Below, piece by piece: positions 4,274 to 42,819 of a stretch of DNA of 43,765 nucleotides. The notes under the pieces were generated by a model. The model saw only the letters and a program-made list of their open reading frames with translations. It searched no databases and had not been told where the DNA came from. Source of the DNA: Mariprofundus sp. (GTDB taxonomy: Bacteria > Pseudomonadota > Zetaproteobacteria > Mariprofundales > Mariprofundaceae); the NCBI GenBank assembly GCA_030951045.1, contig JAUZQJ010000082.1, positions 1 through 43,765 of the forward strand, written 5' to 3'. The translations under genes and the position numbers were made by a program. Each line of letters starts with the position of its first letter. Position 1 is the stretch's first letter.

Positions 4274-4413
4274 TATCACCACGAAGGCACAGAGGTAATG
4301 CAGCATAGCCGTTGCAAACACAGTATCCTGTTTCTTTCTGTGTTGTATTGAATACCCATTAGAGGTTTTTGATTCTTCTTCGATTACCCTTCTAACTGTG
4401 TCTCTGCGGTTAA
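4274..4413. repeat. Dispersed A/B inverted-repeat element, copy 1
   Basis: This is the most diverged member of a four-copy family. The B arm (4274-4299) reads TATCACCACGAAGGCACAGA. The A arm (4384-4413, read on the minus strand) begins TTAACCGCAGAGACACAG. The A arm ends one base before the stop codon of rodA, a minus-strand gene. The arms are separated by about 85 bases of unrelated sequence. No open frame or transposase is inside. Confidence 0.6.
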
Positions 4414-5520
4414 CTATGCCAACGGACTGCCGGGGCGTTGCCAGGGAATTTTCTCATGTGATTCAATGGCTACACGCATAACAAGGCCGAGTGCTGCAAG
4501 CATGGTTACCAGCGCTGAACCGCCATAGCTAATAAAGGGTAGCGGTAAGCCAACAACAGGAAAGATACCGGATACCATGCCGATATTCACGGTGATGTAG
4601 AGGATGAATATCGAGGCAATACCAATGCACAACATCGAAGCAAAGCGACTGTGGGCGCGTTGAGCAATCAACAGAATACGTGAAATTAAGGTGGCATAGA
4701 GTCCCAGCAACAAGATGACAGCAATTAGCCCACCTTCCTCAGCCAGCACAGAAAAGATGAAGTCGGTATGTTGCTCGGGCAGAAAGTGTAAACGTGCTTG
4801 TGTGCCCTGTAGAAACCCTTTGCCGAACAGGCCGCCGGAACCGATCGCAATACTTGATTGTATGACATGGTAACCAGCCCCTAATGGATCTGATTGGGGA
4901 TCTAGCAGGGTAAGTACGCGTTGCTTCTGATAATCATGCATGAAATGCCAGAGTACTGGGAGTGAAGCTATACCTAGTACGAGAGCCGCTGCGAATATGC
5001 GCCACGGCAGACCTGCGGCAATGAGTAGTGCGATGGTAGCGAATAACAGTACCAGCGTTGTGCCAAGGTCAGGTTGGGAGAGGATCAGTGCTGCGGGTAC
5101 GGCAACCAGCAGTAACGGTGCGCCAATATTGACAAACCCTCTGGCTTCGCGCGTAGCAAACCAGCTTGCCAGCACAAACATCATTGCCCACTTCATAATT
5201 TCTGATGGTTGAAGATTGGTGAATCCGATATCCAGCCAGCGCCGTGCGCCCATGTGTACATCACCAATAAGTGGAACCAGCATCAGCAGTAAGAGGCCGG
5301 TGCTATACATTGGCCAGCTCACCAGTCCTAAGAACCTCAACGGTACAAAGCAGAGGATGAGAAAGCCTGTCATACCTGCGCCCCAGAATATCAATTGCTT
5401 TTGCCATAGTCCCATATCGCCCTGATAGACGGCGGCATAAAGCACGCATAGGCCTAAAGCGGCCAGACTTAACAGGCTTGCAAGCAGAACCCAATCGAGT
5501 GAATAGAGTGCGCGTTTCAT
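4414..5520 (-). CDS. rodA: Rod-shape-determining SEDS peptidoglycan glycosyltransferase RodA
   Basis: RodA polymerises glycan strands from lipid II during cell elongation, working with PBP2 and MreBCD. The 368-residue product is a polytopic SEDS-family membrane protein with about ten helices. Characteristic blocks are RRWLDIGFTNLQPSEIMKW, the loop KGFLQGTQARLHFLPEQHTD containing the functional Asp region, and the C-terminal GLPLPFISYGGSAL. Its ATG overlaps the mrdA stop as ATGA, implying translational coupling. It is the last gene of the operon, and its stop codon abuts dispersed repeat copy 1. Confidence 0.96.
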   Translation of the reverse strand: MKRALYSLDWVLLASLLSLAALGLCVLYAAVYQGDMGLWQKQLIFWGAGMTGFLILCFVPLRFLGLVSWPMYSTGLLLLMLVPLIGDVHMGARRWLDIGFTNLQPSEIMKWAMMFVLASWFATREARGFVNIGAPLLLVAVPAALILSQPDLGTTLVLLFATIALLIAAGLPWRIFAAALVLGIASLPVLWHFMHDYQKQRVLTLLDPQSDPLGAGYHVIQSSIAIGSGGLFGKGFLQGTQARLHFLPEQHTDFIFSVLAEEGGLIAVILLLGLYATLISRILLIAQRAHSRFASMLCIGIASIFILYITVNIGMVSGIFPVVGLPLPFISYGGSALVTMLAALGLVMRVAIESHEKIPWQRPGSPLA

Positions 5521-7373
5521 GAGTCTGGCCCTGGCTTGCGGATTAGATGCTTGTTGCTTGCCTGTGCATCTGATGCGCGGGATTGTTTTGTAGCTATGGC
5601 CTGAATGACTGCTGCTGCAACAGGGGCTGCGTCGCTACCGCCGTGGCCACCATGTTCAACAAATACAGCGATGGCAATTTGAGGGTTTTCATATGGAGCA
5701 TAGCCCATGAACCAGGCGTGGTCTTTATGATGCCGTAGGATATCTTTATCTATTGATTTATTTTTAGAAAGCTTAATAACCTGTGCTGTGCCCGTCTTTC
5801 CTGCCGACGTCCAGGCTGCTTTGTTGAGAGCTCTGTGTGCTGTTCCTTTATTACTTAATACTACATCACGCATGGCGGAGCGGATCATCTGAATATGTTC
5901 GGGTTTCACCTTGACCTGATGCAAGACCTTTGCCGGCGTGTGTGCCAATACCTGCGGTTTAAGAATAGAGCCTCCATTGGCAATGGCGGCAGCCAGGCGT
6001 GCGATCTGTAAAGGTGTGGTTGTTAAGGCACCCTGCCCGATGCCAGTGATCATGGTTTCACCGCGAAACCATTTTTTGCGTCGGCTCTGGGTGTTTTTGA
6101 TGGCGGCCATCATATAAGGGCTTTGGGCCGGAATAATGCCACGTGATTCGGGGGCTAGATCAATTTGTGTTTTTTCACCCAGACCCCACGCTTGAGCTGT
6201 ATCACTGATGATGCCCATGCCAAGCTGGTCCGCCAGTTGATAAAAATAGACGTCACAAGATTCGACCAGTGCCTTATGCAAGTTGACACTGTCATGACCG
6301 CGTCGTTTCCAACAATGCAATCTGCGGTCTGAAAATTCAATATAACCGGGGCAAAATGTTGACCCTTCTGCCAGATGGGAGCCGTGTTCAAGACCTGCCA
6401 GGCCCGTCACTAATTTAAACGTCGAGGCAGGAGGGTAGGCTGCCTGTGTGGCACGGTTTAGTAATGGTTTTTCCGGATTGTTCAGCCAGGATTGCCATTG
6501 TGCTGACTCAAGCCCGGTAATAAACCGGTTGGTGTCGTAACCTGGTTTGCTTAGCAAGGCAATGACGCCGCCGGAGTGAACATCCATAACGACCACTGCG
6601 CCGGTGCGCTCACCAAGCGCATCGGAAGCTGCTTGTTGGATATCCGCATCCAGGGCCAGTTGAACGGTTTCTCCCATGATTGATGGTTTGCTGTTGATTA
6701 CCGCAATGCGACGTCCAAGAGCATCAACTTCTTCACGCTGGTGGCCCAGGTGTCCATGTAACGAGGTCTCAAAAGATTTTTCTATGCCGGTGCGTCCAAT
6801 GAATTCAGATGGTAAAAATCCATCATCCACATCCCCTGCATTGGCCAGTGAAAGATATCCAATGATATGTGAGGTGAGCTCTGCAAAGGGGTATTGGCGA
6901 TAGCTGCCTGCTTCTACATTGATGCCGGGGTAGTGGTGTAGTCGGGCTGACAGTGGTGATACATCCGACCATTTCAACTTATCATCCAGTAAAACGGATC
7001 GATCCGGACGTGTATGCTTAATACGCTTGTGGAGCAGGGTGACTTTATCATCTGTCCAGTGCAGGGCATGAGCAAGTGTATGCAGCGTTGCATCTAGGTC
7101 TTTGACCCTTTCCGGAATTAATGTAACTCTGTAATCAATGTGATTAATAGCCAGGCCTTTGCCTTGGGCATCAATGATTTCACCTCTGACTGGTAAGAGA
7201 GGAATGATGTTCAGACGGTTTTGATCGGACTGCAATTGATACTTTTCATGTTCAAACCATTGCAACTGCATAATTTGAAACAGCAGCAGGCCCAAGAAAA
7301 CAGGCGTGGTCGCAAAAAAACAGACCATGCGCACATTAAAGCGCTGACGGATTTCAAGCTGCTTGTTGAGCAT
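5517..7373 (-). CDS. mrdA: Penicillin-binding protein 2 (peptidoglycan D,D-transpeptidase)
   Basis: PBP2 crosslinks peptidoglycan on the periplasmic side during elongation. The 618-residue protein has one N-terminal transmembrane helix (about 17-38) and a dimerisation/pedestal domain with PVRGEIIDAQGKGLA. The transpeptidase domain has the catalytic serine in STFK (317-320), the SxN-position motif as SCD (372-374), and KTGTAQ (KTG at 526-528). These spacings fit class B PBPs. It overlaps mreD by 20 bases and rodA by 4, so the operon is tightly coupled. A GAGG site inside mreD precedes its ATG. Confidence 0.96.
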   Translation of the reverse strand: MLNKQLEIRQRFNVRMVCFFATTPVFLGLLLFQIMQLQWFEHEKYQLQSDQNRLNIIPLLPVRGEIIDAQGKGLAINHIDYRVTLIPERVKDLDATLHTLAHALHWTDDKVTLLHKRIKHTRPDRSVLLDDKLKWSDVSPLSARLHHYPGINVEAGSYRQYPFAELTSHIIGYLSLANAGDVDDGFLPSEFIGRTGIEKSFETSLHGHLGHQREEVDALGRRIAVINSKPSIMGETVQLALDADIQQAASDALGERTGAVVVMDVHSGGVIALLSKPGYDTNRFITGLESAQWQSWLNNPEKPLLNRATQAAYPPASTFKLVTGLAGLEHGSHLAEGSTFCPGYIEFSDRRLHCWKRRGHDSVNLHKALVESCDVYFYQLADQLGMGIISDTAQAWGLGEKTQIDLAPESRGIIPAQSPYMMAAIKNTQSRRKKWFRGETMITGIGQGALTTTPLQIARLAAAIANGGSILKPQVLAHTPAKVLHQVKVKPEHIQMIRSAMRDVVLSNKGTAHRALNKAAWTSAGKTGTAQVIKLSKNKSIDKDILRHHKDHAWFMGYAPYENPQIAIAVFVEHGGHGGSDAAPVAAAVIQAIATKQSRASDAQASNKHLIRKPGPDS

Positions 7374-7764
7374 ATTGCCTCGTCAATATATGCCAAACAG
7401 GTACGCACAGGCATAGCGTTAGCAACGATGCCTGTAAGTCCCAACCCAGTGCCGGCAAAACTGCTATCGCAACGAGCATCAGTAGGATGCGTTGAGGGAG
7501 ACCAGCTCCAAGATGGTGGTCCAGGTAAATCATTGCCAATGGAATGATTGCCAAAATCAGTGCCATGGTGCCAAATGACCAATACAGAATCAAATCATGA
7601 ATCAAGGCGCAGGGTAATACCCATAGCCAGTTGTTTCGGTGCGCAAGCAGGCTGGCGAGTAGCAGTGCCAATGCCCAGTCCGGTTGACTCATCGCTGTGG
7701 AAAAAGCCAGATTAAAACTGATTCCTACAAGGGCAAGCAAGGGAATGATCGTGATAATGATCAT
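7354..7764 (-). CDS. mreD: Rod-shape-determining protein MreD
   Basis: MreD is a small integral membrane partner of MreC in the elongation complex. The 136-residue product is almost wholly hydrophobic with about five predicted helices and an ALIHDLILYW segment. Sequence conservation of MreD is weak, so the call rests on size, topology and its position between mreC and mrdA. Its start overlaps the mreC stop by 4 bases (ATGA), and its 3' end overlaps mrdA by 20. Confidence 0.88.
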   Translation of the reverse strand: MIIITIIPLLALVGISFNLAFSTAMSQPDWALALLLASLLAHRNNWLWVLPCALIHDLILYWSFGTMALILAIIPLAMIYLDHHLGAGLPQRILLMLVAIAVLPALGWDLQASLLTLCLCVPVWHILTRQYAQQAA

Positions 7765-8561
7765 GGTGAGGTAAATGTTTGAATGGAGTGCAGTTGTGAT
7801 GCAACAGCTAGCCAGCTGTCATGTTGCCAGTGTGCAATGGGTTTGGCAGATACGTTGGCAAATAGTTGCCCTGGAATGGGTTGAACATTGGTAATGACGG
7901 CAACGGCAATGCCAGCAGGGAATAGGCCGCCAGCTCCACTGGTATAAAATACCTGACCTTTTTGTGGGGCAATATCAAGAGGAATAAAGTTAATCGACAA
8001 ACTATCACCCTGGCCGCGTGCGAGCGCTGCAAGCTGTGTGCCTGGAATTGTGACAGGTACCGCCAGTGAAGCATCAAATATGGTTCTCACGGTGGCGTGA
8101 TTTGGTGAAATAGTATCAACTAGGCCAACTAAACCTTCGCTGGACACGATAACATCATCTTTTGAGACGTCGGGAACCTGTAAAATCAAACGCTGGCTCA
8201 TTGGCTCCGGGCTGCGTCCGCGTACTTTGGCCGCATGCCAGCGATAGCCAATAATATCTGAAATCTCCAGGATGCTTCTGAGCTGTCGATTCTCTTCACG
8301 CAGACTATTTACTTCCTGAATGACAGCCGCTTGATCCTGAGCTTTCTTTTCAAGTGTTAGATATTGCTGTTGCAACTTTTGTCGATCAATGAACCAGAGG
8401 TCAACCGATTGCCACCATTGTACCGGTGCATGCAGGACCTCTAAAGCTGGCCACATGCTTAACATCGCTGATGAGCCTGCAAACAAGCGGGAGATGCCGA
8501 AAAGTACGATCAGTAATACCGCGATGAGCCACAGTTTATGGCTTCGTTCTGTAAAGATCAT
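7761..8561 (-). CDS. mreC: Rod-shape-determining protein MreC
   Basis: MreC is a bitopic periplasmic scaffold that regulates PBP2/RodA. The 266-residue product has an N-terminal membrane anchor (about 10-30), a coiled coil with LEKKAQDQAAVIQEVNSLRE, then the beta-barrel domain containing VRGRSPEPMSQRLIL, SSEGLVGLVDTISPNHATVR and YTSGAGGLFPAGIAVAVI. These are standard MreC landmarks. It lies 57 bases behind mreB and overlaps mreD by 4 bases. No good ribosome-binding site is visible before its ATG. Confidence 0.93.
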   Translation of the reverse strand: MIFTERSHKLWLIAVLLIVLFGISRLFAGSSAMLSMWPALEVLHAPVQWWQSVDLWFIDRQKLQQQYLTLEKKAQDQAAVIQEVNSLREENRQLRSILEISDIIGYRWHAAKVRGRSPEPMSQRLILQVPDVSKDDVIVSSEGLVGLVDTISPNHATVRTIFDASLAVPVTIPGTQLAALARGQGDSLSINFIPLDIAPQKGQVFYTSGAGGLFPAGIAVAVITNVQPIPGQLFANVSAKPIAHWQHDSWLAVASQLHSIQTFTSP

Positions 8562-8618
8562 GAGTGATGGCTGGGGAAATAGACCATGGATGATATATTG
8601 ATTATGTCATCCATATGT

Positions 8619-9677
<1,059 letters not shown>

Positions 9678-9771
9678 CTAAGTGGCGAGGATAGTGTTAG
9701 AAGAGAGATAGGTAAAGGCGCAGTCAAATGCTTGAAAACATTGAAGAATAGTTTTTTTGGCAGTGTTTTTT

Positions 9772-10539: not shown

Positions 10540-10690
10540 GCGGGGATCATGACGCAGGCTTGGTCATGCCTCAAGAATCAATGTGGTCTGTGTGGTTTGA
10601 CATGGGCATTGACGAGCCGGGTTGTCTGGTGATGGATGCTGCTGGCACGCGTGCGATTTGAATGTGTGGAGTTGATCTGGAATGCAGGCC

Positions 10691-10719
10691 AAAAAAAACC
10701 CCGCCTGTTACAGGCGAGG
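10691..10719 (-). terminator. Intrinsic terminator of the cold-shock gene
   Basis: Read on the minus strand, CCTCGCCTG and CAGGCGGGG form a 9-bp stem (one T-G pair) with a 3-base loop, followed by eight T. It lies about 28 bases after the cold-shock gene stop. Confidence 0.93.
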
Positions 10720-10747
10720 CTAGGAATAGGTTCCTGGTTGTGTTGTC

Positions 10748-10951
10748 TTACAGGCCGATTACGTTACGAGCCTGTGGGCCTTTCTGACCATCTTCGATTT
10801 CAAATTCAACTTTCTGACCTTCAGCCAAAGACTTGAAGCCTTCGTTCTGAATTGCTGAGAAATGAACGAATACGTCATCTCCGCCGTCATCCTGTGCGAT
10901 AAATCCAAAACCTTTAGTGTCGTTAAACCATTTAACTGTTCCTGTAGCCAT
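10748..10951 (-). CDS. cspA: Cold-shock domain protein (CspA family)
   Basis: This is a 67-residue single-stranded nucleic-acid-binding protein, normally an RNA chaperone. It has the classic opening [17 protein letters not shown] with RNP1 (KGFGFI, 13-18) and RNP2 (VFVHF, 27-31), and ends [13 protein letters not shown] site precedes the ATG. The 282-base region up to the divergent purL gene is long enough for the extended structured 5' leader known for some csp genes, but I cannot identify a promoter or cold box with confidence. Whether it is cold-induced cannot be read from sequence, so the symbol is by family. Confidence 0.92.
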
Positions 10952-11233
10952 TATACTGGTACCTCATCTTTGTTTTAGCAGCATGTTGAATGAAGATTGT
11001 TACTGAGAAAACCGAGAAGAAGCTTCTGGATTGGTCAACAAACACTTACAACAACCATGTCTTGCACGACGCACTGTAGGGTGGTGTCAAACAGAATGCT
11101 AGTAAAAACAATTTGAATATTTGCGGATTATGGTTATTCAGGATTTGAAGCCATTGTAACTGTAAACTTGGGTGTATGGGGCCTTTTTCTATTTTATGCT
11201 TGGTTTCCGGCGTCTATATCTTAGAGTGCGGAG

Positions 11234-20878: not shown

Positions 20879-22264
20879 ATGAGTCTGTCTGTTTATAATT
20901 CCCTGCATCGTCGTAAAGAACTGTTTGAACCTCTCGAACCTAATCGTGTGGGTATGTATGTGTGTGGTGTGACTGTCTATGACTATTGTCATGTTGGTCA
21001 TGCGCGTGTGATGGTGGTGTTTGATGTTATTCATCGCTGGCTCACTGAACTTGGTTTTGACGTGAACTATGTGCGCAATTTCACCGACGTAGATGATAAG
21101 ATTATTAAACGGGCCACTGAACGTGGTATTGATATTCATCAACTTACCAATGAGATGATTGCTGCCTTTCAGGAAGATATTGGTTCTCTGGGCTGTTTGC
21201 CGCCAAGTCATGAACCGCGTGCTACTGCCCATATGCCGGATATGGTGAAGATGATTGTCGAGCTTGTAGCGCGAAAGCACGCCTATGTTTCTTCATCCGG
21301 AGATGTGTTGTATGCGGTGCGCAGTTTTGACCACTATGGTCAGCTGTCGGGTAAAAATATCGATGACCTGGAATCGGGCTCACGTGTGGATGTGGATGAT
21401 AGCAAACGTGACCCACTCGATTTCGTGTTGTGGAAAATGGCCAAGCCGGGTGAGCCAGCATGGGATTCACCGTGGGGGCAGGGTAGACCTGGTTGGCATA
21501 TTGAATGTTCAGCCATGAGTTGCTCGCACCTGGGTAATACCTTTGATATTCATGGCGGCGGTATGGACTTGAAATTCCCGCATCATGAAAATGAGATTGC
21601 TCAGGCCTGCGCATCCAACGATGGCAGTTTTGCCCGTTACTGGCTGCATAATGGCTTTGTAAATATCAATGCTGAGAAAATGTCCAAGTCACTGGGTAAC
21701 TTTTTTACCATTCGGGAAGTCACAAAAAACTATCACCCGGAAGTATTGCGCATGTTTATCCTGGGCACCCATTATCGTTCACCATTGGATTTCTCTGATA
21801 GTGCCTTGGATGCTGCCAAAGCCGGATTGGATCGACTGTATGAAACGCTACGGCGATTCAAGCGTGAGACGTTAGATGGAAGATGTGAGATGTCTGAGTC
21901 ACTCATTCCACCTGCTTTCACCAACGCCATGAATGATGATTTCAATACTACTGAAGCGCTGGCGGCACTCTTTGATACCAATCGTGCTTTGAACAAGGCT
22001 TTAAATGAGGGTGCTGATGTCAGTGATCTTGCTGCCCAGTTCAAGGCGATGCTTAACCTGTTGGCTATTGGTCAGCATGACGCAGAAGCCTGGTTTAAGA
22101 GTGGTGATGTTGATGTGGCGCGGATTGAAGCATTGATTGCTGAACGTGGTGAATCAAAAAAAGCCCGTGATTTTGTCCGTGCAGACGCCATTCGTGATGC
22201 ATTGATTGCCGATGGCATTGTACTTGAAGATAGCCCGGGCGGCACAACGTGGAAAAAGGTCTGA
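20879..22264 (+). CDS. cysS: Cysteinyl-tRNA synthetase
   Basis: It charges tRNA-Cys. The 461-residue class I enzyme has the zinc Cys29 in YVCGVTVYD, HVGH (38-41), NFTDVDDKIIKRA, GWHIECSAM, the GGGMDLKFPHHENEIAQ block with further zinc ligands, and KMSKS (267-271). The ATG at 20879 is preferred: AGGAGG ends 10 bases before it, whereas an in-frame GTG at 20870 lies one base after AGGAGG. It starts 5 bases after the gltX stop, so the two synthetases are co-transcribed. Dispersed repeat copy 2 begins 18 bases after the stop. Confidence 0.97.
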   Translation: MSLSVYNSLHRRKELFEPLEPNRVGMYVCGVTVYDYCHVGHARVMVVFDVIHRWLTELGFDVNYVRNFTDVDDKIIKRATERGIDIHQLTNEMIAAFQEDIGSLGCLPPSHEPRATAHMPDMVKMIVELVARKHAYVSSSGDVLYAVRSFDHYGQLSGKNIDDLESGSRVDVDDSKRDPLDFVLWKMAKPGEPAWDSPWGQGRPGWHIECSAMSCSHLGNTFDIHGGGMDLKFPHHENEIAQACASNDGSFARYWLHNGFVNINAEKMSKSLGNFFTIREVTKNYHPEVLRMFILGTHYRSPLDFSDSALDAAKAGLDRLYETLRRFKRETLDGRCEMSESLIPPAFTNAMNDDFNTTEALAALFDTNRALNKALNEGADVSDLAAQFKAMLNLLAIGQHDAEAWFKSGDVDVARIEALIAERGESKKARDFVRADAIRDALIADGIVLEDSPGGTTWKKV

Positions 22265-22282
22265 TAGGCAAATAGTCAAAGA

Positions 22283-22414
22283 TTTACCGCAGAGTACGCA
22301 GAGTTACGCAGAGTAAAGTCAGAGGCATAGTGGAAGAAAGAGAAGTAAGCTGTGCTGTTTTATATGGTTTTGTTTTTCCTTTGCGTCACTCTGAGTCCTC
22401 TGTGGTGAAAGATT
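22283..22414. repeat. Dispersed A/B inverted-repeat element, copy 2
   Basis: The A arm (22283-22317) begins TTTACCGCAGAG and ends GAGTAAA; it holds three CGCAGAG units 10 bases apart and matches copy 4 at 34 of 35 positions. The B arm (22378-22414, inverted) reads on the minus strand CTTTCACCACAGAGGAC. The A arm faces the cysS stop codon, and the B arm ends 16 bases before the cysH ribosome-binding site. Confidence 0.85.
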
Positions 22415-22443
22415 TTATTGGTTTTGAAGTAGAGGTTGTGAAG

Positions 22444-23136
22444 ATGCAAGTAAAAGTGGATGAAACAATTGCCCTGCTAAAGCAGGCAGAGAACGAATAT
22501 GGTTCCGCGTTAGTTTTTGCATGCAGTTTTGGTGCTGAAGACGTAGTGATGGTTGATCTGATCAGCAAACATGCTCCATCCATCCAGATCGTCACGCTTG
22601 ATACAGGTCGTTTGCCACAGGCGACTTACGATGTGATGGATGCCTGTCGTGAAAAATATGGTCTGGATATCAAAGTCTATTTCCCGGATGCAGCTGAAGT
22701 AGAAGCGATGGTTCGTGAATCAGGCCTCAATCTGTTTTACAAGTCGGTAGAGAATCGCAAACAGTGTTGTGCTGTGCGTAAAATTCATTCCTTAAAACGC
22801 GCTTTGGCCGGTCAAAAAGCATGGATCACCGGTGTGCGTCGGGAGCAGGCTGATTCGCGTCTGGATATGGCTGCCGTGGAAGATGATGCCCATTTCGGTT
22901 TGAAGAAGTTCAATCCTTTGATTGAATGGACAGAATCAGAGGTGTGGGACTATATCCGTAGCAACGATGTGCCCTACAATGCGCTGCACGATCAACATTA
23001 TCCATCCATTGGTTGTGAACCATGTTCCCGATCGATTACTGTCGGTGAAGATCCAAGATCCGGACGTTGGTGGTGGGAGCGTGAGGATGCTGTGGCTGAA
23101 TGTGGTCTGCATGCCAGCCCATTGAAAAAGCCGTAG
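22444..23136 (+). CDS. cysH: Adenylyl-sulfate (APS) reductase, iron-sulfur type
   Basis: It reduces activated sulfate to sulfite using thioredoxin in assimilatory sulfur metabolism. The 230-residue product has the PP-loop-type start FACSFGAEDVVMVDLI, LDTGRLPQATYD, and the four cluster cysteines as Cys108-Cys109 (KQCCAVRK) and Cys191/Cys194 (IGCEPC). The catalytic Cys220 lies in ECGLH. The paired cysteines indicate the [4Fe-4S] enzyme, typically APS-using, rather than the cluster-free PAPS enzyme. I chose the ATG at 22444 with AGAGG upstream. Earlier in-frame starts lie within repeat copy 2 and give an atypical N-terminus. Confidence 0.93.
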   Translation: MQVKVDETIALLKQAENEYGSALVFACSFGAEDVVMVDLISKHAPSIQIVTLDTGRLPQATYDVMDACREKYGLDIKVYFPDAAEVEAMVRESGLNLFYKSVENRKQCCAVRKIHSLKRALAGQKAWITGVRREQADSRLDMAAVEDDAHFGLKKFNPLIEWTESEVWDYIRSNDVPYNALHDQHYPSIGCEPCSRSITVGEDPRSGRWWWEREDAVAECGLHASPLKKP

Positions 23137-23146
23137 AAAACAAAAA

Positions 23147-23174
23147 AGCTGACGTGAAAACGCCAGCTTTTTTT
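23147..23174. terminator. Bidirectional intrinsic terminator between cysH and the 70-residue gene
   Basis: AGCTGACGT and ACGCCAGCT form a 9-position stem with one A-C mismatch and a GAAA loop. It is preceded by an A run and followed by seven T, so it can serve cysH on the plus strand and the converging small gene on the minus strand. Confidence 0.85.
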
Positions 23175-23190
23175 GATGTTTCTAATGTTA

Positions 23191-23403
23191 TTAGAAATGC
23201 ATTCTGTAATGTGGATCCATCCAGCATTTTGGTAGTGCTTCTCCGGATGCAAATGTTACATCGGATTTTTCTACAGGTTCTGGATCACCGACTTCTTCAC
23301 CGGCCTGGAATTGCACGGTAACAAATGATGAGTTTGGATCTGTGAGTTGACTTAGTTCAACGACCTGCGCGAGATCGCCATTATCTGCTTTTCTCAAGAA
23401 CAT
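23191..23403 (-). CDS. Small conserved-looking protein of unknown function
   Basis: The 70-residue product starts MFLRKADNGDLAQVVELSQL and has FQAGEEVGDPEPVEKSDVTF and SGEALPKCWMDPHYR. I have a feeling of similar short proteins in other proteobacteria but cannot name a function. It is acidic and soluble with one cysteine. A strong AAGGAGG site 6 bases before the ATG makes it a convincing gene. It converges on cysH and shares the bidirectional terminator. A sulfur-metabolism link is only suggested by that position. Confidence 0.8.
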   Translation of the reverse strand: MFLRKADNGDLAQVVELSQLTDPNSSFVTVQFQAGEEVGDPEPVEKSDVTFASGEALPKCWMDPHYRMHF

Positions 23404-23539
23404 ATCAGCCTCCTTGTTGTGCGTGTGACGTGCTGAATTTATCCAATATACGCTTCATGACCGGTTTTATCCAGCTCCAAGGTGGCCGCTTTCAGAGCAA
23501 TCGTATTAAAACACCCTATATTTTACAGCTTATTCAGTA

Positions 23540-23693
23540 TTTTTTCACCGCAAAGGACGCAAAGTAAGCCAAAGGCGACCCTTGTGAAAGTAGATGTATT
23601 CACCAGATAACTACAGTAAGTCTTAGGCAAGAAATCCTAACATATTAAAATATATGGGTTTACTCTGCGAAACTTTGCGTCCTCTGCGGTAAA
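23540..23693. repeat. Dispersed A/B inverted-repeat element, copy 3
   Basis: The B arm (23540-23575) reads TTTTTCACCGCAAAGGACGC. The A arm (23659-23693, read on the minus strand) begins TTTACCGCAGAGGACGCA and ends GAGTAAA, matching copy 4 at 33 of 35 positions. It lies in the 350-base gap 23404-23753, with the A arm 60 bases behind the bioA stop (minus strand). The rest of the gap holds no gene that I can see. Confidence 0.85.
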
Positions 23694-23753
23694 TTCTTTT
23701 ATTATTTTAATGCGATTGCCCTATGAGCGCGCTCTTTGTCTCAGCTACAGTAT

Positions 23754-25052
23754 TTAAGCGTTAGCGCAGATCTGGGTGATGGCTGAAGTAATGCGGCGAA
23801 GCTCTGTTTCGGATATGATAAAAGGAGGCATGGTGTATAGCAGCTTGCCAAATGGGCGCAGCCAAACACCCTGCTCAATCAGCTCTTTTTGTACCTGTTC
23901 GACATTGATTTTCTGATGCATTTCGATGACGCCGATTGCGCCTTTAATGCGTACATCGGCAACCGCATCAACATCTTTACAGGCACGTAGCTCGGTATGA
24001 AGTTGCGCTTCGATATTCAATACATGCTGTTGCCAGTCTGAGGCGAGCAGTAATTCTAAATTGGCCAGAGCTACTGCACAGGCTAATGGGTTGGCCATAA
24101 ATGTTGGGCCATGCATCAACACACCAGAGCCATCGCGATGAATGCCATCACATACCTGTGCTGAGCAGAGGGTGGCAGCCAGGCTCATATAGCCACCGGT
24201 CAGTGCTTTGCCGACGCACATGATATCCGGCTCGATACCGGCATGTTCACAGGCAAACATGGCACCTGTACGGCCAAACCCAGTGGCGATTTCATCCACA
24301 ATGAGCAATAGATCATATTGATCACAGAGTTTTCGCACCTGCCGCAAAAATTCAGGTGCATAAAAACGCATGCCGCCTGCGCCTTGTACAATGGGTTCGA
24401 TAATGACTGCGGCTAGTTCATGGTGATGCGTTTTGATAGTCGATGCAAAGGATTCAATATGAGAATCATGCCACTCTGCATCGGATGTGGCGTTTGGGGC
24501 ATCGACAAACAGTTGCTGAGCCAGGATGCTGGAGAAGAGATGGTGCATGCCGGAATCAGGGTCACAGACGCTCATCGCACCAAAGGTGTCGCCGTGATAC
24601 CCCGAGCGAATGGTTAGTAACCTGTTTTTTTTCGGTTTGCCTGTTGCTTGCCAGAATTGCAATGCCATCTTCATGGAAACTTCTACCGAGACAGAACCGG
24701 AATCGGAAAAGAACACATGATTCATATTGGCAGGTGTGATTTCGAGTAGTTTTTCAGCCAGTTTTGCAGCGGGCCTGTGTGTTAAACCGCCAAACATCAC
24801 ATGCGACATATCTTTTATCTGTGTCTGAATGGCTGCATTGAGTTCAGGCACATTATAACCGTGAATAGCACTCCACCAGGATGACATACCATCGATCACG
24901 CGCCGTCCATCCTCAAATTCAAGGTAAACACCCTCGGCCCGTTTGACGGGATAGACAGGGATCGGTGATTTCATGCTGGCATAGGGGTGCCAGACATGCT
25001 GACGTTCAAATGTTATCCAGTTCGTGGAATGTTCGGGTTCGGGGCTGCTCAT
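23754..25052 (-). CDS. bioA: Adenosylmethionine-8-amino-7-oxononanoate aminotransferase
   Basis: This PLP enzyme makes 7,8-diaminopelargonate in biotin synthesis, using S-adenosylmethionine as amino donor. The 432-residue class III aminotransferase opens with WITFERQHVWHPYASMK, the BioA signature, followed by DGMSSWWSAIHGYN, GYHGDTFGAMSVCDP, DEIATGFGRTG (from 253) and the PLP lysine Lys282 in VGKALTGGYM. The HVWHPY and SSWW features separate it from other class III transaminases. Its ATG overlaps the holA stop (ATGA). No other biotin gene is in the window, so its place at the end of leuS-lptE-holA is noteworthy. Confidence 0.95.
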   Translation of the reverse strand: MSSPEPEHSTNWITFERQHVWHPYASMKSPIPVYPVKRAEGVYLEFEDGRRVIDGMSSWWSAIHGYNVPELNAAIQTQIKDMSHVMFGGLTHRPAAKLAEKLLEITPANMNHVFFSDSGSVSVEVSMKMALQFWQATGKPKKNRLLTIRSGYHGDTFGAMSVCDPDSGMHHLFSSILAQQLFVDAPNATSDAEWHDSHIESFASTIKTHHHELAAVIIEPIVQGAGGMRFYAPEFLRQVRKLCDQYDLLLIVDEIATGFGRTGAMFACEHAGIEPDIMCVGKALTGGYMSLAATLCSAQVCDGIHRDGSGVLMHGPTFMANPLACAVALANLELLLASDWQQHVLNIEAQLHTELRACKDVDAVADVRIKGAIGVIEMHQKINVEQVQKELIEQGVWLRPFGKLLYTMPPFIISETELRRITSAITQICANA

Positions 25053-29848: not shown

Positions 29849-30668
29849 AGTGCGCTACAGCTGCCTTGAGTTTTTTCATGGCGCGCGCTTCAAGTTGGCG
29901 AATACGTTCGATGGATACTCCGAATTCCTCTGATAAATCTTTCAGGGTGGCTGGATCTTCGGAGAGGTGGCGGCGCTCAACAATTTGGCGATCACGCAGA
30001 GCCAGCGTTTGCATAGCGGTATGGAGAATCGACTTTTGATGATCTTCCCAGTTGGATGCGACCGCAATCTCTTCAGGTGTTGCATCCGATGTCGGTAGGC
30101 CATGAACCATGGCATCGCCTTCATCACTCTCGGCATCGAGAGAGACATCACGCTGCAGGAACGCATTGGCTGTTTCCTGGTATTCGTTGCCGTTAATGCC
30201 ATATTCAGCAGCCACTTCATCAGCTTTGCGGCCATCAATAGCAGCAATGGCATTTTTGGCTTTTTGCAGGCCGGCGAAAATGCGGCGTTGTAGTTTATTG
30301 GTGCCCAGCTTCACGATGCTCCAGGAGCGTAAGATAAAATCGTGAATGGATGCACGCACCCACCAGGATGCATAGGTCATCAAGCGGAAGCCGCGTTCCG
30401 GGTCGAAGCGTTTTACCGCATGCATCAGGCCCATTGTACCTTCCTGAATCAGATCCATTTCAGGCAGACCAAAATGACGATATTCACGGGCAATGGCAGA
30501 TACGCCACTTAAATTGGCTACTACCAACTGACGTGCTGCATCGCGGTCTTCATTGTCATGCCACAAACGCGCCAGACGCGCCTCTTCCTCGCGATCAAAG
30601 CTTGGTGCTTTGCGTACATCGCGGGAAAAAAGTGCCAAACTGTTCAGATCAAGCGTTGCATTAGCCAA
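29847..30668 (-). CDS. rpoH: RNA polymerase heat-shock sigma factor (sigma-32)
   Basis: It directs polymerase to heat-shock promoters. The protein, 273 residues from the TTG at 30668, has region 2 with LVVANLSGVSAIAREYRHFG, DLIQEGTMGLMHAVKRFDPE and FRLMTYASWWVRASIHDFIL. The sigma-32 box-like stretch SWSIVKLGTNKLQRRIF follows, and region 4 has LRDRQIVERRHLSEDPATL and FGVSIERIRQLEARAMKKLK. The TTG is chosen because GAGG lies 7 bases upstream and RpoH proteins begin near here. Another in-frame TTG at 30701 would add 11 residues. A good promoter lies about 40 bases upstream. Confidence 0.95.
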   Translation of the reverse strand: MANATLDLNSLALFSRDVRKAPSFDREEEARLARLWHDNEDRDAARQLVVANLSGVSAIAREYRHFGLPEMDLIQEGTMGLMHAVKRFDPERGFRLMTYASWWVRASIHDFILRSWSIVKLGTNKLQRRIFAGLQKAKNAIAAIDGRKADEVAAEYGINGNEYQETANAFLQRDVSLDAESDEGDAMVHGLPTSDATPEEIAVASNWEDHQKSILHTAMQTLALRDRQIVERRHLSEDPATLKDLSEEFGVSIERIRQLEARAMKKLKAAVAH

Positions 30669-33365: not shown

Positions 33366-33369
<4 letters not shown>

Positions 33370-35054: not shown

Positions 35055-35139
35055 TCTTAACTCCTTATGAATATTCAGGGCGATTTGTACGGTTTGCAGA
35101 TGAATAAAAGATGAATAAATAATTTATTATTGATCTGTT

Positions 35140-36012: not shown

Positions 36013-36072
36013 GTGTCCTTTTGAATCATTATTCAGGAATATGTTGAGCTTACAATCGGGCGCTAATTATTT

Positions 36073-36537: not shown

Positions 36538-36711
36538 AACGCTGAGGTCGTTATTTTTGATGAAATATTACAAACGGATGTTCGTCTATGATGAGGAACA
36601 GATAATGTAATGCTTCAATATTACCGTCGACGAATGATGCAAGGTAGCAGTGTTTACCGAACAGATCCCGACAACGCGTGTGTTTGGGGTGAAAGAAGCA
36701 GGAGGTGCATG

Positions 36712-37065: not shown

Positions 37066-37398
37066 TAACATAGTATGAATGTCCATGACCGTTCTCTCTG
37101 TCGAATGGAAGGGGCTCGGGCCGATACGTTCCTATCCCTCGCATCGGATCGAAACTCTTCCCAAAGGAGTATATCAAAGCGTATAGCAGTCACGATCGAT
37201 GGTAATGTTCACTCGGTAACAATGCAGGGGGGGCTCTATTCCCGCACTGTATGAATTGCGTCCCGGCACACTAATTGACAACCGACGATGAGCTGGGGCA
37301 TTTTTTATCGATCCATATTCAAGCATCACAAACTAATGTCAGCGTCATTGCTGCCGACAGAGTTCCACTATAAATACACCATGGATGGGGAATTATAG
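37066..37398. other. Intergenic region without a supported gene
   Basis: About 330 bases. A TTGACA hexamer occurs near 37275 but no matching -10 box is at the right distance. CTATAAATA near 37370 could be a -10 region for the HD-GYP fragment, with a poor -35. No RNA gene, convincing terminator or dispersed repeat copy is seen. Confidence 0.4.
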
Positions 37399-37596
37399 AT
37401 GCAACACATTGAAGCGCTGCTACAATCATTGTTTATCATGTCATCGATGGTGGAGGCGCGCGATACCTATACAGGTGGCCACTTGTGGCGGGTAGGTCAG
37501 TTTTCACGACTACTTGCCGGAGCCGCAGGACTGAGCCGGCAGGAGGTAGCCCGCATCAGCATCACTGGTTTAATCGGAAATAAGCTATGGTATTAG
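37399..37596 (+). pseudogene. Truncated HD-GYP phosphodiesterase fragment
   Basis: The 65-residue frame reads SMVEARDTYTGGHLWRVGQF followed by SRLLAGAAGLSRQEVARIS. It corresponds to the beginning of an HD-GYP cyclic-di-GMP phosphodiesterase domain, including the first His of the HD fold. The family then continues with a GGLLHDIGK-type motif, but here the frame breaks into ITGLIGNKLWY and stops, so the metal-binding HD pair and the GYP motif are absent. I found no continuation in another frame before the porin gene. It is probably a remnant left by deletion or insertion. A small functional protein cannot be excluded, as the frame starts cleanly with ATG. Confidence 0.7.
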
Positions 37597-37687
37597 CAGA
37601 ACGATGGCGTTCAATCAGGTTACAAAACGTAGCCTCCCTCTTTTACAACAATTGCCGGTGCATCAGTACCACAGAGTATCCGCTTTG

Positions 37688-39010: not shown

Positions 39011-39052
39011 CGGACCAAGCTGATGCTTTTGAATCCACGTCCGTCAGTTACC
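39006..39052 (+). terminator. Imperfect hairpin behind the porin gene
   Basis: GGTAACGGAC (39006-39015) can pair with GTCC (39039-39042) and GTTACC (39047-39052), leaving a 4-base bulge and a 23-base loop. Only four T follow, about 6 bases on. It may be a weak terminator or attenuator between the porin and the ECF sigma gene. Confidence 0.35.
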
Positions 39053-39094
39053 ACATATTTTAGCGTTATGGTAAATCAATACAGGAGATTATGA

Positions 39095-39667
39095 TTGAAA
39101 GAAGATAATAAAAAGGTGGAAAAATGGCTGGCAGATTATGGCGACTACCTTTTCGTTTATGCCATGAAGCAGGTGCAGGACAGGGATGTAGCTTTTGACC
39201 TGGTTCAAGAGACACTTTTGGGTGGTTTGAGATCAACATTCAATGGCGACTCAACTGAAAGAACCTGGCTAACCGGTATTCTCAAACATAAGGTGATAGA
39301 TTATATTCGCAAACAAGTACGTGATCGAAAATTGATCAGTGAACTTAAAAATGATCCCAACTCAAATTATTTTAGCGCAGATGGTTCCTGGCTCGAAACA
39401 GGACACAGTGATCACGACACCCCAAACCGTCAGGCACAAAACAATCAACTCCAACAACATCTCATGCAATGTGTCTCATCTTTAAGTGAACAGCAGCGAA
39501 CGATATTTATTCTGCGCGAAATAAATGGTGAAAGTACCGCTAATATCTGTCTAACCTATGGTATCTCATCCTCGAACGTGCATGTTATTATGCACAGAGC
39601 CCGCTTAGCTCTCTGTAAGTGTCTGTCAGCTTTGGGGTATAATCATGGGGTAAGCCCCACCGTGTAA
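39095..39667 (+). CDS. ECF-type RNA polymerase sigma factor
   Basis: This is a 190-residue group 4 sigma factor. Region 2 is visible in YAMKQVQDRDVAFDLVQETL and WLTGILKHKVIDYIRKQ; region 4 in LSEQQRTIFILREINGEST and GISSSNVHVIMHRARLALCKCL. No anti-sigma gene is adjacent, so its control is unclear; its position suggests it serves the genes around it. The start is TTG at 39095, 7 bases after AGGAG. An ATG at 39091, only 3 bases after AGGAG, is in another frame and reads just five codons, overlapping the true start. That arrangement could lower translation. Confidence 0.88.
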   Translation: MKEDNKKVEKWLADYGDYLFVYAMKQVQDRDVAFDLVQETLLGGLRSTFNGDSTERTWLTGILKHKVIDYIRKQVRDRKLISELKNDPNSNYFSADGSWLETGHSDHDTPNRQAQNNQLQQHLMQCVSSLSEQQRTIFILREINGESTANICLTYGISSSNVHVIMHRARLALCKCLSALGYNHGVSPTV

Positions 39668-39724
39668 GAAACACATTGTTTTCCGGACATAGAGTGTAGA
39701 AAATAGATTCTACCGGGGAGCACC

Positions 39725-41239
39725 ATGTCTCAAAACATCATCGAAACAGCCTATAGCTGGATATCTGTTGCTCTGCTTGCCCTCATCGCCGGCGCATTAC
39801 TGACAGCACTTATCCTGTTTATCATTGATATCACACAAACTAAATATGCAGTACGCAGAAACTATCCGCTTATCGGCCGCTTTCGGTCTCTGTTTGAACA
39901 CCTTGGCACCTTTTTTCGCCAGTACTTCTTCGCGATGGATAGAGAAGAGATGCCATTTAACCGGGCGCTGCGATCATGGATTTACCGGGCCTCAAAAAAT
40001 GAGGACAGCACCATCCCTTTCGGTTCAACGCGTGATTTGACCCCGACCGGTAGTATCTCTTTCGTCAACTGCCCTTATCCCACCCTGGATGTCGATGCTG
40101 TGCCAACCCGGGCGATGGTAATTGGCACTGATTGTCGTACCCCGTTTGAAGCCGGCAGCTTGTTCAATATCTCCGGTATGAGTTATGGCGCCATCTCCAA
40201 AGTGGCTGTGCAGGCGCTTTCCAGCGGTGCGGCCAAAGCCGGTTGCTGGATGAATACCGGAGAAGGAGGACTATCGCCTTATCATCTGGAGGGCGGTTGC
40301 GACATTGTCATGCAGATTGGTACTGCCAAATATGGTGTGCGGGATAGCGATGGTAATCTTTCTGATGAACGTTTGTCTGCATTGGCCGCGATTGAACAGG
40401 TCAGAATGTTTGAGATCAAACTCAGCCAGGGTGCCAAACCCGGTAAGGGGGGCATCTTACCTGCGGTTAAGGTTACCGCCGAGATTGCTGCCATTCGTGG
40501 TATTCCGGCCGGTGAAGATTCGATCAGCCCGAATCGGCATGTCGATATCGATAGCCCGGGCGAATTGCTGGATATGATCGCTCACATTCGTGAGGTCACC
40601 GGTAAACCTGTCGGCTTCAAACTGGTGTTGGGCGGTTGCGGAGCGCTGGATCATTTGTTTGATGAAATCAAGCGGCGCGGCGATCAATCTGCGCCGGATT
40701 TTATTGCACTCGATAGCGCCGACGGCGGTTCAGGAGCGGCGCCGCAACCGTTGATGGATTTTATGGGAATGACGTTGAAAGAGAGTCTGCCGATGCTGAT
40801 TGATCATCTGGTCGGTTATGGGCTGCGTGATCGTGTGCGGGTGATTTGTTCGGGCAAGCTGATTACACCGTCGGGTGTGGCATGGGCGCTGTGTATGGGG
40901 GCGGATTTCATCGTTTCGGCGCGCGGTTTCATGTTTGCGTTGGGCTGTATTCAGGCCATGCAGTGCCATAAAAATACCTGCCCGACCGGCATTACTACCC
41001 ATCAAAAGAGATTACAGCGCGGATTAGATCCGCAGGACAAATCGGTGCGAGTGGCGCATTATGTCGAAAATATGTTGCATGATGTTGGCGTTATTGCGCA
41101 TTCCTGCGGGGTGAAACATCCACGCCAATTGCAACGCAGGCACGCACGCGTGGTCACATCCGATAGCAGCAGCACCGGCCTGCATCAACTGCACCCGGAA
41201 ACAGAAAATGGATTTCCGCACGGCAAAGCAAAGGAGTAA
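39725..41239 (+). CDS. Membrane-anchored FMN-binding glutamate-synthase-like protein
   Basis: The 504-residue product resembles the synthase domain of glutamate synthase (GltS family) with an added N-terminal transmembrane helix (about 14-36) and no glutaminase domain. Landmarks are ISGMSYGAISKVAVQALS, NTGEGGLSPYH, KLSQGAKPGKGGILP, ALDSADGGSGAAPQPLMDF and the 3Fe-4S ligands Cys408, Cys414, Cys419 (Cx5Cx4C, in GCIQAMQCHKNTCPTG). The true reaction of these stand-alone proteins is not established. GGGGAG precedes the ATG. A perfect TATAAT at 39638-39643, inside the sigma gene end, could start a separate transcript but has no clear -35. The aldehyde dehydrogenase gene follows directly. Confidence 0.88.
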   Translation: MSQNIIETAYSWISVALLALIAGALLTALILFIIDITQTKYAVRRNYPLIGRFRSLFEHLGTFFRQYFFAMDREEMPFNRALRSWIYRASKNEDSTIPFGSTRDLTPTGSISFVNCPYPTLDVDAVPTRAMVIGTDCRTPFEAGSLFNISGMSYGAISKVAVQALSSGAAKAGCWMNTGEGGLSPYHLEGGCDIVMQIGTAKYGVRDSDGNLSDERLSALAAIEQVRMFEIKLSQGAKPGKGGILPAVKVTAEIAAIRGIPAGEDSISPNRHVDIDSPGELLDMIAHIREVTGKPVGFKLVLGGCGALDHLFDEIKRRGDQSAPDFIALDSADGGSGAAPQPLMDFMGMTLKESLPMLIDHLVGYGLRDRVRVICSGKLITPSGVAWALCMGADFIVSARGFMFALGCIQAMQCHKNTCPTGITTHQKRLQRGLDPQDKSVRVAHYVENMLHDVGVIAHSCGVKHPRQLQRRHARVVTSDSSSTGLHQLHPETENGFPHGKAKE

Positions 41240-41242
41240 ATG

Positions 41243-42697
41243 ATGAACGATCATGTTGAACATTACCCATTAATGATTTCCGGCGTAACTGAAACTAAAG
41301 ATCATGTACTGGAAGTCAGATCCCCCTACGATGATCAACTGCTTGCTACAGTGGCAACGGCAGATAAGGCTGTTGTAGAGGCTGCTCTGACCAAGGCACA
41401 CACGCTCTTTGCCAACAGAAAGGGCTGGATTCCTGTGGCTGAACGCATTGCTATGCTCGAACGGGCAATCGAACTGATGAAAGAGCGGGCTGAAGAACTG
41501 GCGCGCGGAGCGGCCGAAGAGGGCGGTAAGCCGCTGATAGACTCTCGTGTTGAGATGGTGCGCTGCATTGACAGTATCCGTATCTGTATCGATAGCTTGC
41601 GCACCGATAGCAGCCACGCTCCGGTTTTGGGTTTGAATACTGCATCCCGTCATCGTATGGCGCTGATGCAAAAAGAACCGATTGGTGTGGTGGTGGCTGT
41701 TAGCGCATTCAATCACCCACTGAATTTAATCGCGCATCAAATTGGCCCCGCCATTGCCTCTGGCTGCCCTGTCATTATCAAGCCGGCAGAAGACACGCCG
41801 CTATCATGTTATCGTCTGGTGCGTCTGTTTCATCAGGCGGGGCTACCAGAGGATTGGTGTCAATTTATCATGCCTACATCAACATCATTGGCAGAAGCGC
41901 TCGTTACCGATCCCCGCGTGGCATTCTTCAGTTTTATAGGCAGTGCTAACGTTGGTTGGTATCTGCGATCAAAACTCGCTGCCGGTACACGCTGTGCACT
42001 GGAACATGGCGGTGTTGCCCCCGTTATTATCACATCTGATGCCGACATAAATCAACATTTACCCGGCCTGATGAAAGGGGCTTTCTACCACGCCGGACAG
42101 GTATGTGTGTCGGTGCAACGCATTTTCGCCCATGCATCGATTGCACGTGAATTGGCTGATAAGATGGCGAATCTGGCCAAGAAAATGACGGTAGGGGATC
42201 CGTTATCCGCACTAACGGAGGTGGGGCCTCTGATTAGAGCAAAAGAGCTGGATCGGATTGATTTATGGGTTAAAGAAGCGATTGCAGGAGGGGCTAAACT
42301 GCTGTGTGGTGGAGATCGGCTTGATCATCACTGTTATGCCCCCACCGTTTTATATAATCCTCCTTACGATGCGACTATCTCTACACGAGAAGTGTTCGGG
42401 CCAGTTGTTGCTGTCTATCCATTTGATGAGCTCGACTCAGCCATTGATGATGCCAATGAATTAGAAGTCGCTTTTCAGGCATCGGTTTACAGCCGTGATA
42501 TTGATACGGCCCTCTACATTTCTAATCGCCTTGATGCATCAGCGGTGATGGTGAATGACCACACTGCCTTTAGAGTGGACTGGATGCCATTTGCAGGTCT
42601 AAAACATTCGGGGCTCGGTGTTGGAGGCATTCCACACACCATGCACGATATGCAGATCGAAAAGATGACCATCATTCATTCGGCAAGTATTGCATAA
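41243..42697 (+). CDS. NAD(P)-dependent aldehyde dehydrogenase family protein
   Basis: It oxidises an unknown aldehyde to the acid. The 484-residue protein has QKEPIGVVVAVSAFNHPLNL, the cofactor region KPAEDTPLSCYRLV, FFSFIGSANVGW, the general base Glu in LEHGGVAPVI (a variant of LELGGKSP) and the nucleophile Cys in HAGQVCVSVQR, about 34 residues apart as usual. EVFGPVVAVYPFDELDSAI is also typical. Two tandem ATGs exist at 41240 and 41243; AAGGAG is 6 bases from the second. It starts right after the stop of the GltS-like gene, so they are coupled. Dispersed repeat copy 4 follows. Confidence 0.92.
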   Translation: MNDHVEHYPLMISGVTETKDHVLEVRSPYDDQLLATVATADKAVVEAALTKAHTLFANRKGWIPVAERIAMLERAIELMKERAEELARGAAEEGGKPLIDSRVEMVRCIDSIRICIDSLRTDSSHAPVLGLNTASRHRMALMQKEPIGVVVAVSAFNHPLNLIAHQIGPAIASGCPVIIKPAEDTPLSCYRLVRLFHQAGLPEDWCQFIMPTSTSLAEALVTDPRVAFFSFIGSANVGWYLRSKLAAGTRCALEHGGVAPVIITSDADINQHLPGLMKGAFYHAGQVCVSVQRIFAHASIARELADKMANLAKKMTVGDPLSALTEVGPLIRAKELDRIDLWVKEAIAGGAKLLCGGDRLDHHCYAPTVLYNPPYDATISTREVFGPVVAVYPFDELDSAIDDANELEVAFQASVYSRDIDTALYISNRLDASAVMVNDHTAFRVDWMPFAGLKHSGLGVGGIPHTMHDMQIEKMTIIHSASIA

Positions 42698-42708
42698 AGT
42701 CAAAATCA

Positions 42709-42819
42709 TTTACCGCAGAGGACGCAGAGTTACGCAGAGTAAAAATCAGATCATCGATGAGTCGCCTCGAAATATTTTAACTTCCCTTTGCGTACTTTGC
42801 GTCCACTGCGGTGAAAAAA
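42709..42819. repeat. Dispersed A/B inverted-repeat element, copy 4
   Basis: The A arm (42709-42743) begins TTTACCGCAGAGGACGCA and ends GAGTAAA, with three CGCAGAG units. The B arm (42782-42819, inverted) reads on the minus strand TTTTTTCACCGCAGTGGACG. It sits between the aldehyde dehydrogenase stop (11 bases before the A arm) and the ThDP-enzyme ribosome-binding site, which starts 17 bases after it. Confidence 0.85.

Follow-up and report, generated by a model that had tools for sequence, protein, structure and literature searches.

Four intergenic repeats of a Mariprofundus contig as probable gene-less members of a GxxExxY-encoding inverted-repeat family

Background and main finding

Contig JAUZQJ010000082.1 of a Mariprofundus genome (assembly GCA_030951045.1, 2.26 Mb in 164 contigs, here G000) carries four inverted-repeat elements, here called copies 1 to 4. 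The window analysed is this whole contig (C146), 43,765 nucleotides long. On balance, the four repeats are probably small gene-less (or gene-lost) members of an inverted-repeat family that encodes a GxxExxY protein, spread by nuclease action and repair. The arms of this family are dispersed over the gaps between genes and enclose GxxExxY genes in more than one phylum. Left and right arms match each other, contents turn over between relatives, and at one site the gene has been lost.

Each arm is built from roughly three 8-10 nt units that resemble C(G/A)C(A/G)(A/G)AG, usually with ACC at its outer end. Next comes either a GxxExxY gene or some 40-200 bases of variable DNA, and then the same arm inverted. 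Copies 1 to 4 all carry inverted arms of ACC(G/A)C..AG tandem units, copy 1 in an older dialect.

How such an element might spread can be sketched. In DNA the arms would form an extruded hairpin or cruciform; alternatively, they would fold in RNA once transcribed. The GxxExxY protein, predicted to be a nuclease like Cas4 or lambda exonuclease, would process DNA that carries such arms. A further copy with arms would then serve as the template for repair, and in this way the element would spread and the centre between its arms would be swapped. The host would need no function from it, and would tolerate a parasite in its untranslated gaps. Spread by homing or conversion of this kind would explain why sites are kept and centres swapped, why arm dialects are genome-wide, and why no clear target duplication is seen. 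We hold this nuclease-on-hairpin mechanism to be plausible, a little short of probable. That the element is selfish or mobile is likely.

GxxExxY genes between the arms

Arms and GxxExxY gene very likely form one recurring architecture. Both GxxExxY genes of G000 (2/2) are flanked by inverted CGC(A/G)AAG-type arms. On contig C107, two facing arms stand around a gene that matches TIGR04256 (GxxExxY) with an E of 2.8e-44; its neighbours we take to be trpD and trpC from reading the sequence. The sole further match in G000, on C41, is enclosed in the same way.

The family was found in 26 of the 61 genomes compared. Flanks of 300 nt were scored for their best inverted match at 31 GxxExxY loci of relatives (of 53 matches). 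The median is 38, against 18 for random windows, and 21 of the 31 surpass the top random window (33; n=424, drawn from GxxExxY and four-helix-bundle loci). In 14 of the 31 the own partner is the best of all 31; swapped-partner scores reach 64, since arms of the same dialect match one another.

For a wider sample, the best 80 were taken of the 579 confirmed relatives listed for one peptide pattern, so that near relatives of the query are over-represented. The sample comes from named genomes, two archaea among them, and was scored at 78 loci, leaving out two with a short flank (L217, L222). Here the median is 40, against 18 in 1,578 control windows; 59 of the 78 loci are above the control 99th percentile and 65 above the 95th. 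The Methanosarcinales locus passes (38) and the Methanothrix locus fails (17). For a given left arm, its own right arm is the best of 78 partners in 32 cases, with a median rank of 1. The unit words vary among elements, and include CGCAGAG, CACGAAG, CACAGAT, CGCGGAT and CACGGAA. GxxExxY is present in genomes of many phyla.

The gap between trpD and trpC holds a GxxExxY gene in 12 of the 31 loci (11 genus members, plus L097 of another genus), in differing dialects. At these 12 orthologous copies the own arms score a median of 41.5 and swapped arms 24. The own partner is the best in 3 of the 12, and 4 of them score 26 or less. The arms flanking GxxExxY are identical letter for letter in G016 (L074), a genome of the same genus, and in Zetaproteobacteria bacterium CG1_02_53_45 (L164).

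The dialect can also be placed on the protein tree. This was done with 110 rows, 77 of which have a clear CGC or CAC dialect and were used, while 4 mixed and 29 unclassed rows were dropped. It takes 17 dialect changes, against a mean of 25.6 for shuffled labels, and none of 300 shuffles is as low. For the wide rows alone (55), there are 14 changes against 18.5 shuffled, with 9 of 300 as low.

The protein itself matches PF13366. In an alignment of 42 sequences D63, E73, K75 and Q87 are invariant, and Y91 is conserved in at least 90%. This is the PD-(D/E)XK residue set of Cas4- and RecB-like proteins (D..E-x-K plus Q-x3-Y), and predicts a nuclease. The AlphaFold2 model has a pLDDT of 96.8. Its Foldseek matches are weak, the best being SSO0001 chains (E 3e-3, none below 1e-3), followed by lambda exonuclease; SSO0001 is a Cas4. 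The PADLOC Cas4 model gives weak matches in 29 of the 42 sequences (best E 1.5e-4), and a sequence search up to E 1 returned no solved structure. GxxExxY is absent from the phage collection and present in 8 plasmid records, and carriage by phages or plasmids was rejected.

Arm number and presence of the gene

A generic arm pattern yields up to 210 matches per genome, and 0-3 for reversed controls. Among the 61 genomes, those with at least five arms comprise 25 with GxxExxY and 7 without; those with fewer than five comprise 1 with and 28 without (Fisher 1.3e-9). Over 78 genomes of the order, the median number of arms is 25 with GxxExxY (46 genomes) versus 4.5 without it (32), p 2e-6. The 37 order genomes that were new to the test, 21 with the gene versus 16 without, give p 4.5e-4.

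The unit step tends to be constant in a genome. By eye, among the matches listed, 25 of 27 in G030 have 18 nt (a 9-nt step), and all of those in G039 (23/23) and G028 (11/11) have 17 nt (an 8-nt step). This indicates homogenisation or recent expansion within genomes.

Turnover at fixed sites

A close relative, G010, is 94.5% identical to the window over 23.5 kb. Copy 1 is also present there, more decayed. Copies 2 and 4 have kept their site and most of their left arm in G010, but have a different centre there. G010 has no copy 3. The residual sequence is no simple join, which means that a clean empty site cannot be claimed: a deletion that left a scar is just as probable as an insertion.

This comparison was extended to arm clusters elsewhere in G000. 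It covered the window region and those stretches of G010 that had been picked because they matched an arm or a gene, and thus under-samples arm-less sites. Out of 61 clusters 34 were located in G010, 3 of them with a centre too short to score. The 31 scorable centres divide into 17 conserved, 10 replaced (counting the absence of copy 3) and 4 in between.

By eye, the gap between cysS and cysH holds an element in G000, G010, G022 and G006, and is short and without one in seven genus members. In the gap between the aldehyde dehydrogenase and the thiamine diphosphate (ThDP) enzyme, G017 has an element in another dialect, again by eye.

A further site is the gap between two genes that we take to be pheA and hisC. 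In G010 and G001 it holds an arm-flanked GxxExxY gene. G000 has lost the gene. What remains there is the right arm, plus about 37 bases that match the 3' spacer of G010 with one mismatch; on the left is a new CGCAGAG arm. One arm-only element, at the least, is thus derived from a site that bore the gene.

The preliminary description of the window had offered a non-autonomous mobile element as one option. The dispersed copies, the turnover among close relatives and the gene-bearing origin at one site speak for it. We infer from the correlation of arms with the gene and from this one gene-loss site that the GxxExxY protein may move the small copies.

The four repeats

All four elements lie where they had been placed from the sequence alone. 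An 18-base arm-core pattern with up to three mismatches has 8 matches in the window, versus a mean of 0.45 and a maximum of 3 in 100 shuffles. Six of the 8 are the arms of copies 2-4; copy 4 has one more match, which is shifted, and a stray one lies at 30608.

Copy 1 had been called diverged, and is: its arms differ in dialect (ACCACGAAGGCACAGAG / TTAACCGCAGAGACACAG). The left arm is at 4278-4295 (+) and is old and diverged, of the ACCACGAAGGCACAGAGG dialect. The right arm is at 4396-4413 (-) (reverse complement TTAACCGCAGAGACACAG). Copy 1 is best read as an old family member with arms of another dialect. Beside it is a 96-aa open reading frame (ORF) at 3968-4258 with no Pfam match. If this is a gene, copy 1 sits between two convergent stops.

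Copy 2 starts 18 nt past the cysS stop with its left arm, mostly retained in G010, at 22283-22317 (+). The centre at 22318-22377 is unrelated to the G010 centre at the same site. The right arm, at 22378-22409 (-), precedes a PAPS-reductase (cysH-like) gene.

Copy 4 begins 11 nt past the aldehyde dehydrogenase stop, with a left arm at 42709-42743 (+). The centre at 42744-42783 is not the one that G010 and other members of the genus have at this site. The right arm at 42784-42819 (-) precedes the gene for a ThDP enzyme, which is acetolactate-synthase-like.

Copy 3 has a left arm of the CGCAAAG type at 23543-23574 (+) and a right arm of the CGCAGAG type at 23659-23693 (-). It sits within a larger element, bounded by 18-base outer inverted ends (AGRGCAATCGYATTAAAA). 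These terminal inverted repeats (TIRs) lie at 23494-23511 (+; AGAGCAATCGTATTAAAA) and at 23705-23722 (-; reverse complement AGGGCAATCGCATTAAAA); it is this whole element that G010 lacks. The core of the outer ends has 107 matches in the genome at up to two mismatches, versus 28 for the reversed pattern. By eye, some of these outer-end elements have the centre of copy 3 in common. Searching the window for the outer ends gives two matches, both of copy 3, and copies 1, 2 and 4 are without such a TIR. Arms thus occur inside copy 3-type TIR elements and elsewhere around varied centres, which means that at least one transposon-like lineage carries arms.

Other members of this TIR family (AGGGCAATCGCATTAAAA; 23494-23722 in the window) are at C24:56177-56254, C27:6952 and C106:116 of G000. 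The C24 copy is a short TIR form with ATGTTTAAGTG on both sides. The TIRs on C27 and C106 are without arms in the stretch inspected; we suppose that they may be ends of a parent insertion sequence.

The identity of the A arms of copies 2-4 had been put at 33-34 of 35 positions. The measured values of 34/35 (copies 2 and 4) and 33/35 (3 and 4) agree with this, and the 32/35 of copies 2 and 3 is slightly below. The neighbouring genes stand by profile match as a RodA/FtsW family protein, a cysteinyl-tRNA-synthetase type and an aldehyde dehydrogenase. The gene labelled bioA matches class-III aminotransferases, and is assigned here to that class.

Other genes in the same design

Genes of the S23p/four-helix-bundle family (TIGR02436) of the clade are also found inside inverted arms of tandem units. 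The median score is 37 at 18 loci (18 of 32 matches used), and 11 of the 18 exceed every random window. The arms are of a dialect of their own (GTGAGATGT, GTGAGGGGTCAGG). At these loci (L102-L123) the own partner is the best of 18 in 9 cases. G000 itself has no S23p match at E 0.001.

The arm motif distinguishes these loci from the GxxExxY ones. ACC(G/A)C is found in 37 of 62 GxxExxY flanks versus none of 36 S23p flanks. The strict arm motif is within 900 nt of 18 of 31 GxxExxY loci, of 0/18 S23p loci and of 0/23 loci of Y1 transposases. The last are 23 of 30 loci, one per genome (1 of the 5 in G000). About half of the Y1 loci have strong inverted repeats of their own.

Arms as product or as target

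Several observations weigh against spread by a GxxExxY nuclease. Transposition, nuclease activity and arm binding by GxxExxY are predictions. In the wide sample, 19 of the 78 loci miss the control 99th percentile, one of the two archaeal loci among them. The two-unit motif is present on both sides in inward polarity at just 39 of the 78, and 20 upstream flanks also have a copy that points the other way. The arm dialect tracks the protein tree weakly, and a strict co-evolution of the two was rejected. Between G000 and G010, conserved centres (17/31) outnumber replaced ones (10), and at replaced sites the arms are just partly retained.

Target duplication gives no clear signal in 28 elements, a test that is sound mainly for the 14 from G000. 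A direct flank match of at least 7 is seen in 1 of the 28 (copy 2, AAAGATTT) versus 2.2% of swapped pairs; in most of the 14 wide rows the flank had been cut within the arm. Among the 14 own-genome elements it is likewise 1.

Arm numbers add to these points. Their statistics ignore kinship and assembly completeness, and related genomes are not independent. Several genomes are arm-rich with no GxxExxY found: G040 (209 arms), G018 (45), G017 (33), G125 (28), G030 (27) and G034 (27). G040 has its 209 arm matches in 1.8 Mb. Outside the order, 9 of 10 GxxExxY-bearing Pseudomonadota have at most 3 matches to the pattern, which misses some dialects. Within the genus, arm number correlates equally well with Y1 number (0.50) and with GxxExxY number (0.45). 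The number of S23p genes also correlates with that of the arms, less strongly (0.52, 61 genomes).

It could be, for example, that the arms are a target and not a product. Palindromes of a different origin would then be spread by some other factor, and GxxExxY genes would insert into their loops as passengers. We consider this unlikely, and it is the most serious of the alternatives. The many arm-only copies, the arm-rich genomes without the gene, the arms riding in TIR elements of the transposon type (copy 3 and other sites) and the unrelated S23p genes that show the same architecture with other arms would all fit it. However, pre-existing ACC(G/A)C arms should then also receive S23p and Y1 genes, and the motif counts for these were 0/18 and 0/23 loci. 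Moreover, the dialect tracks the GxxExxY protein tree beyond what shuffled labels give.

Placement, folding and a possible RNA role

Genome-wide, the pattern CACNGCARAGDACGCARAG has 94 matches at up to three mismatches, versus 9 for the reversed pattern. Placement was surveyed in 52 stretches of G000 (274 kb), where arm matches at up to two mismatches form the 61 clusters. Of these, 31 lie in gaps between tandem genes, 10 in convergent and 8 in divergent gaps, 11 at an edge and 1 inside an ORF. All gaps in the same stretches number 225, of which 153 are tandem, 38 convergent and 34 divergent. The gap types of the clusters resemble this background, and therefore no preference is seen. Gene calls for placement, orientation and co-direction followed simple ORF rules; the placement count missed cysH beside copy 2.

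The preliminary description had proposed that the A arm faces the stop codon of the adjoining gene, and had named copies inside genes, copies in random orientation and arms found mostly alone as signs to the contrary. The first is nearly missing: one of 61 clusters is within an ORF, of 90 aa and perhaps spurious. The second is what the whole-genome count gives. T-preceded ('A') arms face a stop outward in 10 cases and a start in 16, and for C-preceded ('B') arms this is 14 and 11 (Fisher p 0.27; 78 arm matches, the remainder having neither within 250 nt or another preceding base). Outside the window, T/C paired elements with a one-sided stop have their C arm on the stop side in 5 cases (C116, C27, C73:14915, C87 and C95) and their T arm there in a single case (C63). 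The four out of four in the window was chance.

As to the third sign, the 17 pairs at up to two mismatches account for 34 of the 78 arms, and more pairs appear if diverged partners are read by eye. One A and one B arm per element is not general either, as 11 of the 17 paired elements have the T/C combination. The centres had been called unrelated, which is right within the window; genome-wide it does not hold, as the centre of copy 3 recurs in other copies (by eye).

Several G000 and G010 elements have small modules in common (AAGGTGAAT..TTGCGnAAGAGA.. and ..CCGCAGGCGCATGGATGCGCAGGC..), located within the arms or next to them. Examples are L053 (10041-10064), L348 and L349, and also L056, L075, L311 and L340. 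It looks as if a tiny repeat inserts into arms.

The elements might also act mainly as RNA, as hairpins past the stop that end transcripts or protect 3' ends and are selected by the host. The RNA folds are strong: against shuffles, the z-score is -6.6 for copy 2, -3.4 for copy 3 (part), -7.8 for copy 4 and -2.8 for copy 1, the last equalled by 2 of 200 shuffles. Left and right arms match even as the sequence changes, and arms that adjoin a stop do so at a short distance (median 21 nt, n=27; from a start 69 nt, n=30). GxxExxY runs in the same direction as the gene upstream in 59 of 72 cases, where tandem gaps are 153 of the 225 above, and as the gene downstream in 46 of 64.

Nevertheless, such a role is improbable. 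Stops and starts face arms equally (27 versus 30), and gap types are like the background. The 31 of 61 clusters between tandem genes are where a terminator would cut off the downstream gene. Many relatives have the cysS-cysH and aldehyde dehydrogenase gaps without any element. Copies 2-4 fold well as single-stranded DNA too, and no Rfam family matches at gathering score.

A terminator scan of 22200-23800, which spans copies 2 and 3 only, found 4 versus 1.5 expected, none across a whole element. One terminator-like small stem at 23570-23584 (minus strand) overlaps copy 3. An origin of the arms in an Rfam family was rejected, the sole match in the window being a cspA thermoregulator RNA (RF01766, 112 bits) at 10693-11073 (-).

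Relation to known elements

A repetitive extragenic palindrome (REP) is one small tagged palindrome. REPINs are paired REPs, and RAYTs are the REP-associated Y1/HUH transposases; papers on them are PMC3116915 and PMC8266576. REPINs share with the elements here the short inverted arms, a variable spacer, the intergenic placement and the tens of copies. They also share that one small protein gene family is linked to the repeats and flanked by the same arms. In contrast, the linked gene here is a predicted PD-(D/E)XK nuclease and there a Y1/HUH transposase, and the arms here are tandem 8-10 nt units that the tested Y1 loci of the clade lack.

That the arms are ordinary REPs spread by a RAYT would agree with this likeness and with the commonness of Y1 in the clade (5 matches in G000), its number correlating with that of the arms (0.35 over 61 genomes; 0.50 in the genus), but it is very improbable and largely refuted by the 0/23 tested Y1 loci with the strict motif within 900 nt, while G023 (4 Y1 matches), G035 (2) and G007 (1) have no arm match.

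Miniature inverted-repeat transposable elements (MITEs) are likewise small, non-coding and multi-copy with inverted ends, and the 18-base TIRs of copy 3 do occur at other sites. Unlike MITEs, copies 1, 2 and 4 have no shared TIR and no common centre, and they show no clear sign of a consistent target duplication.

The nearest published design found is the intervening sequence (IVS) of Coxiella 23S rRNA. It has an S23p ORF with tandem heptamers (GACAGAT) ahead of it, and the authors call it selfish (PMC4990558). A small ORF with tandem units is what both have in common, and the S23p genes of the clade here are inside inverted arms of such units. The S23p protein is unrelated to GxxExxY, its sites are in rRNA and not in gaps between protein genes, and its arms are of another dialect.

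In open-access papers, with preprints outside the search, GxxExxY is named in passing, and the accessible text says nothing there of function, arms or mobility. The arm words turned up in unrelated papers only; given the open-access scope, a prior description is possible. None of the titles listed links PDDEXK_3, S23p, Zetaproteobacteria or dispersed palindromes to such arms.

What the link would mean

A wider and more tentative idea is that GxxExxY proteins might be the mobility enzymes of transposase-less selfish 'nuclease-in-hairpin' elements in bacteria and archaea, which would spread by arm cutting and site conversion. The CGCAGAG, CACGAAG and CACAGAT repeats of environmental genomes would then be their footprints, and S23p/IVS elements a parallel class. 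We put this forward as possible, and not as probable.

The link joins a little-studied nuclease to a set of nameless repeats. It makes the arms a candidate substrate and GxxExxY a candidate enzyme. If true, short elements would have one more means of spreading that needs no transposase. It would also explain a class of repeats in environmental genomes, and would group GxxExxY and S23p elements by their design.

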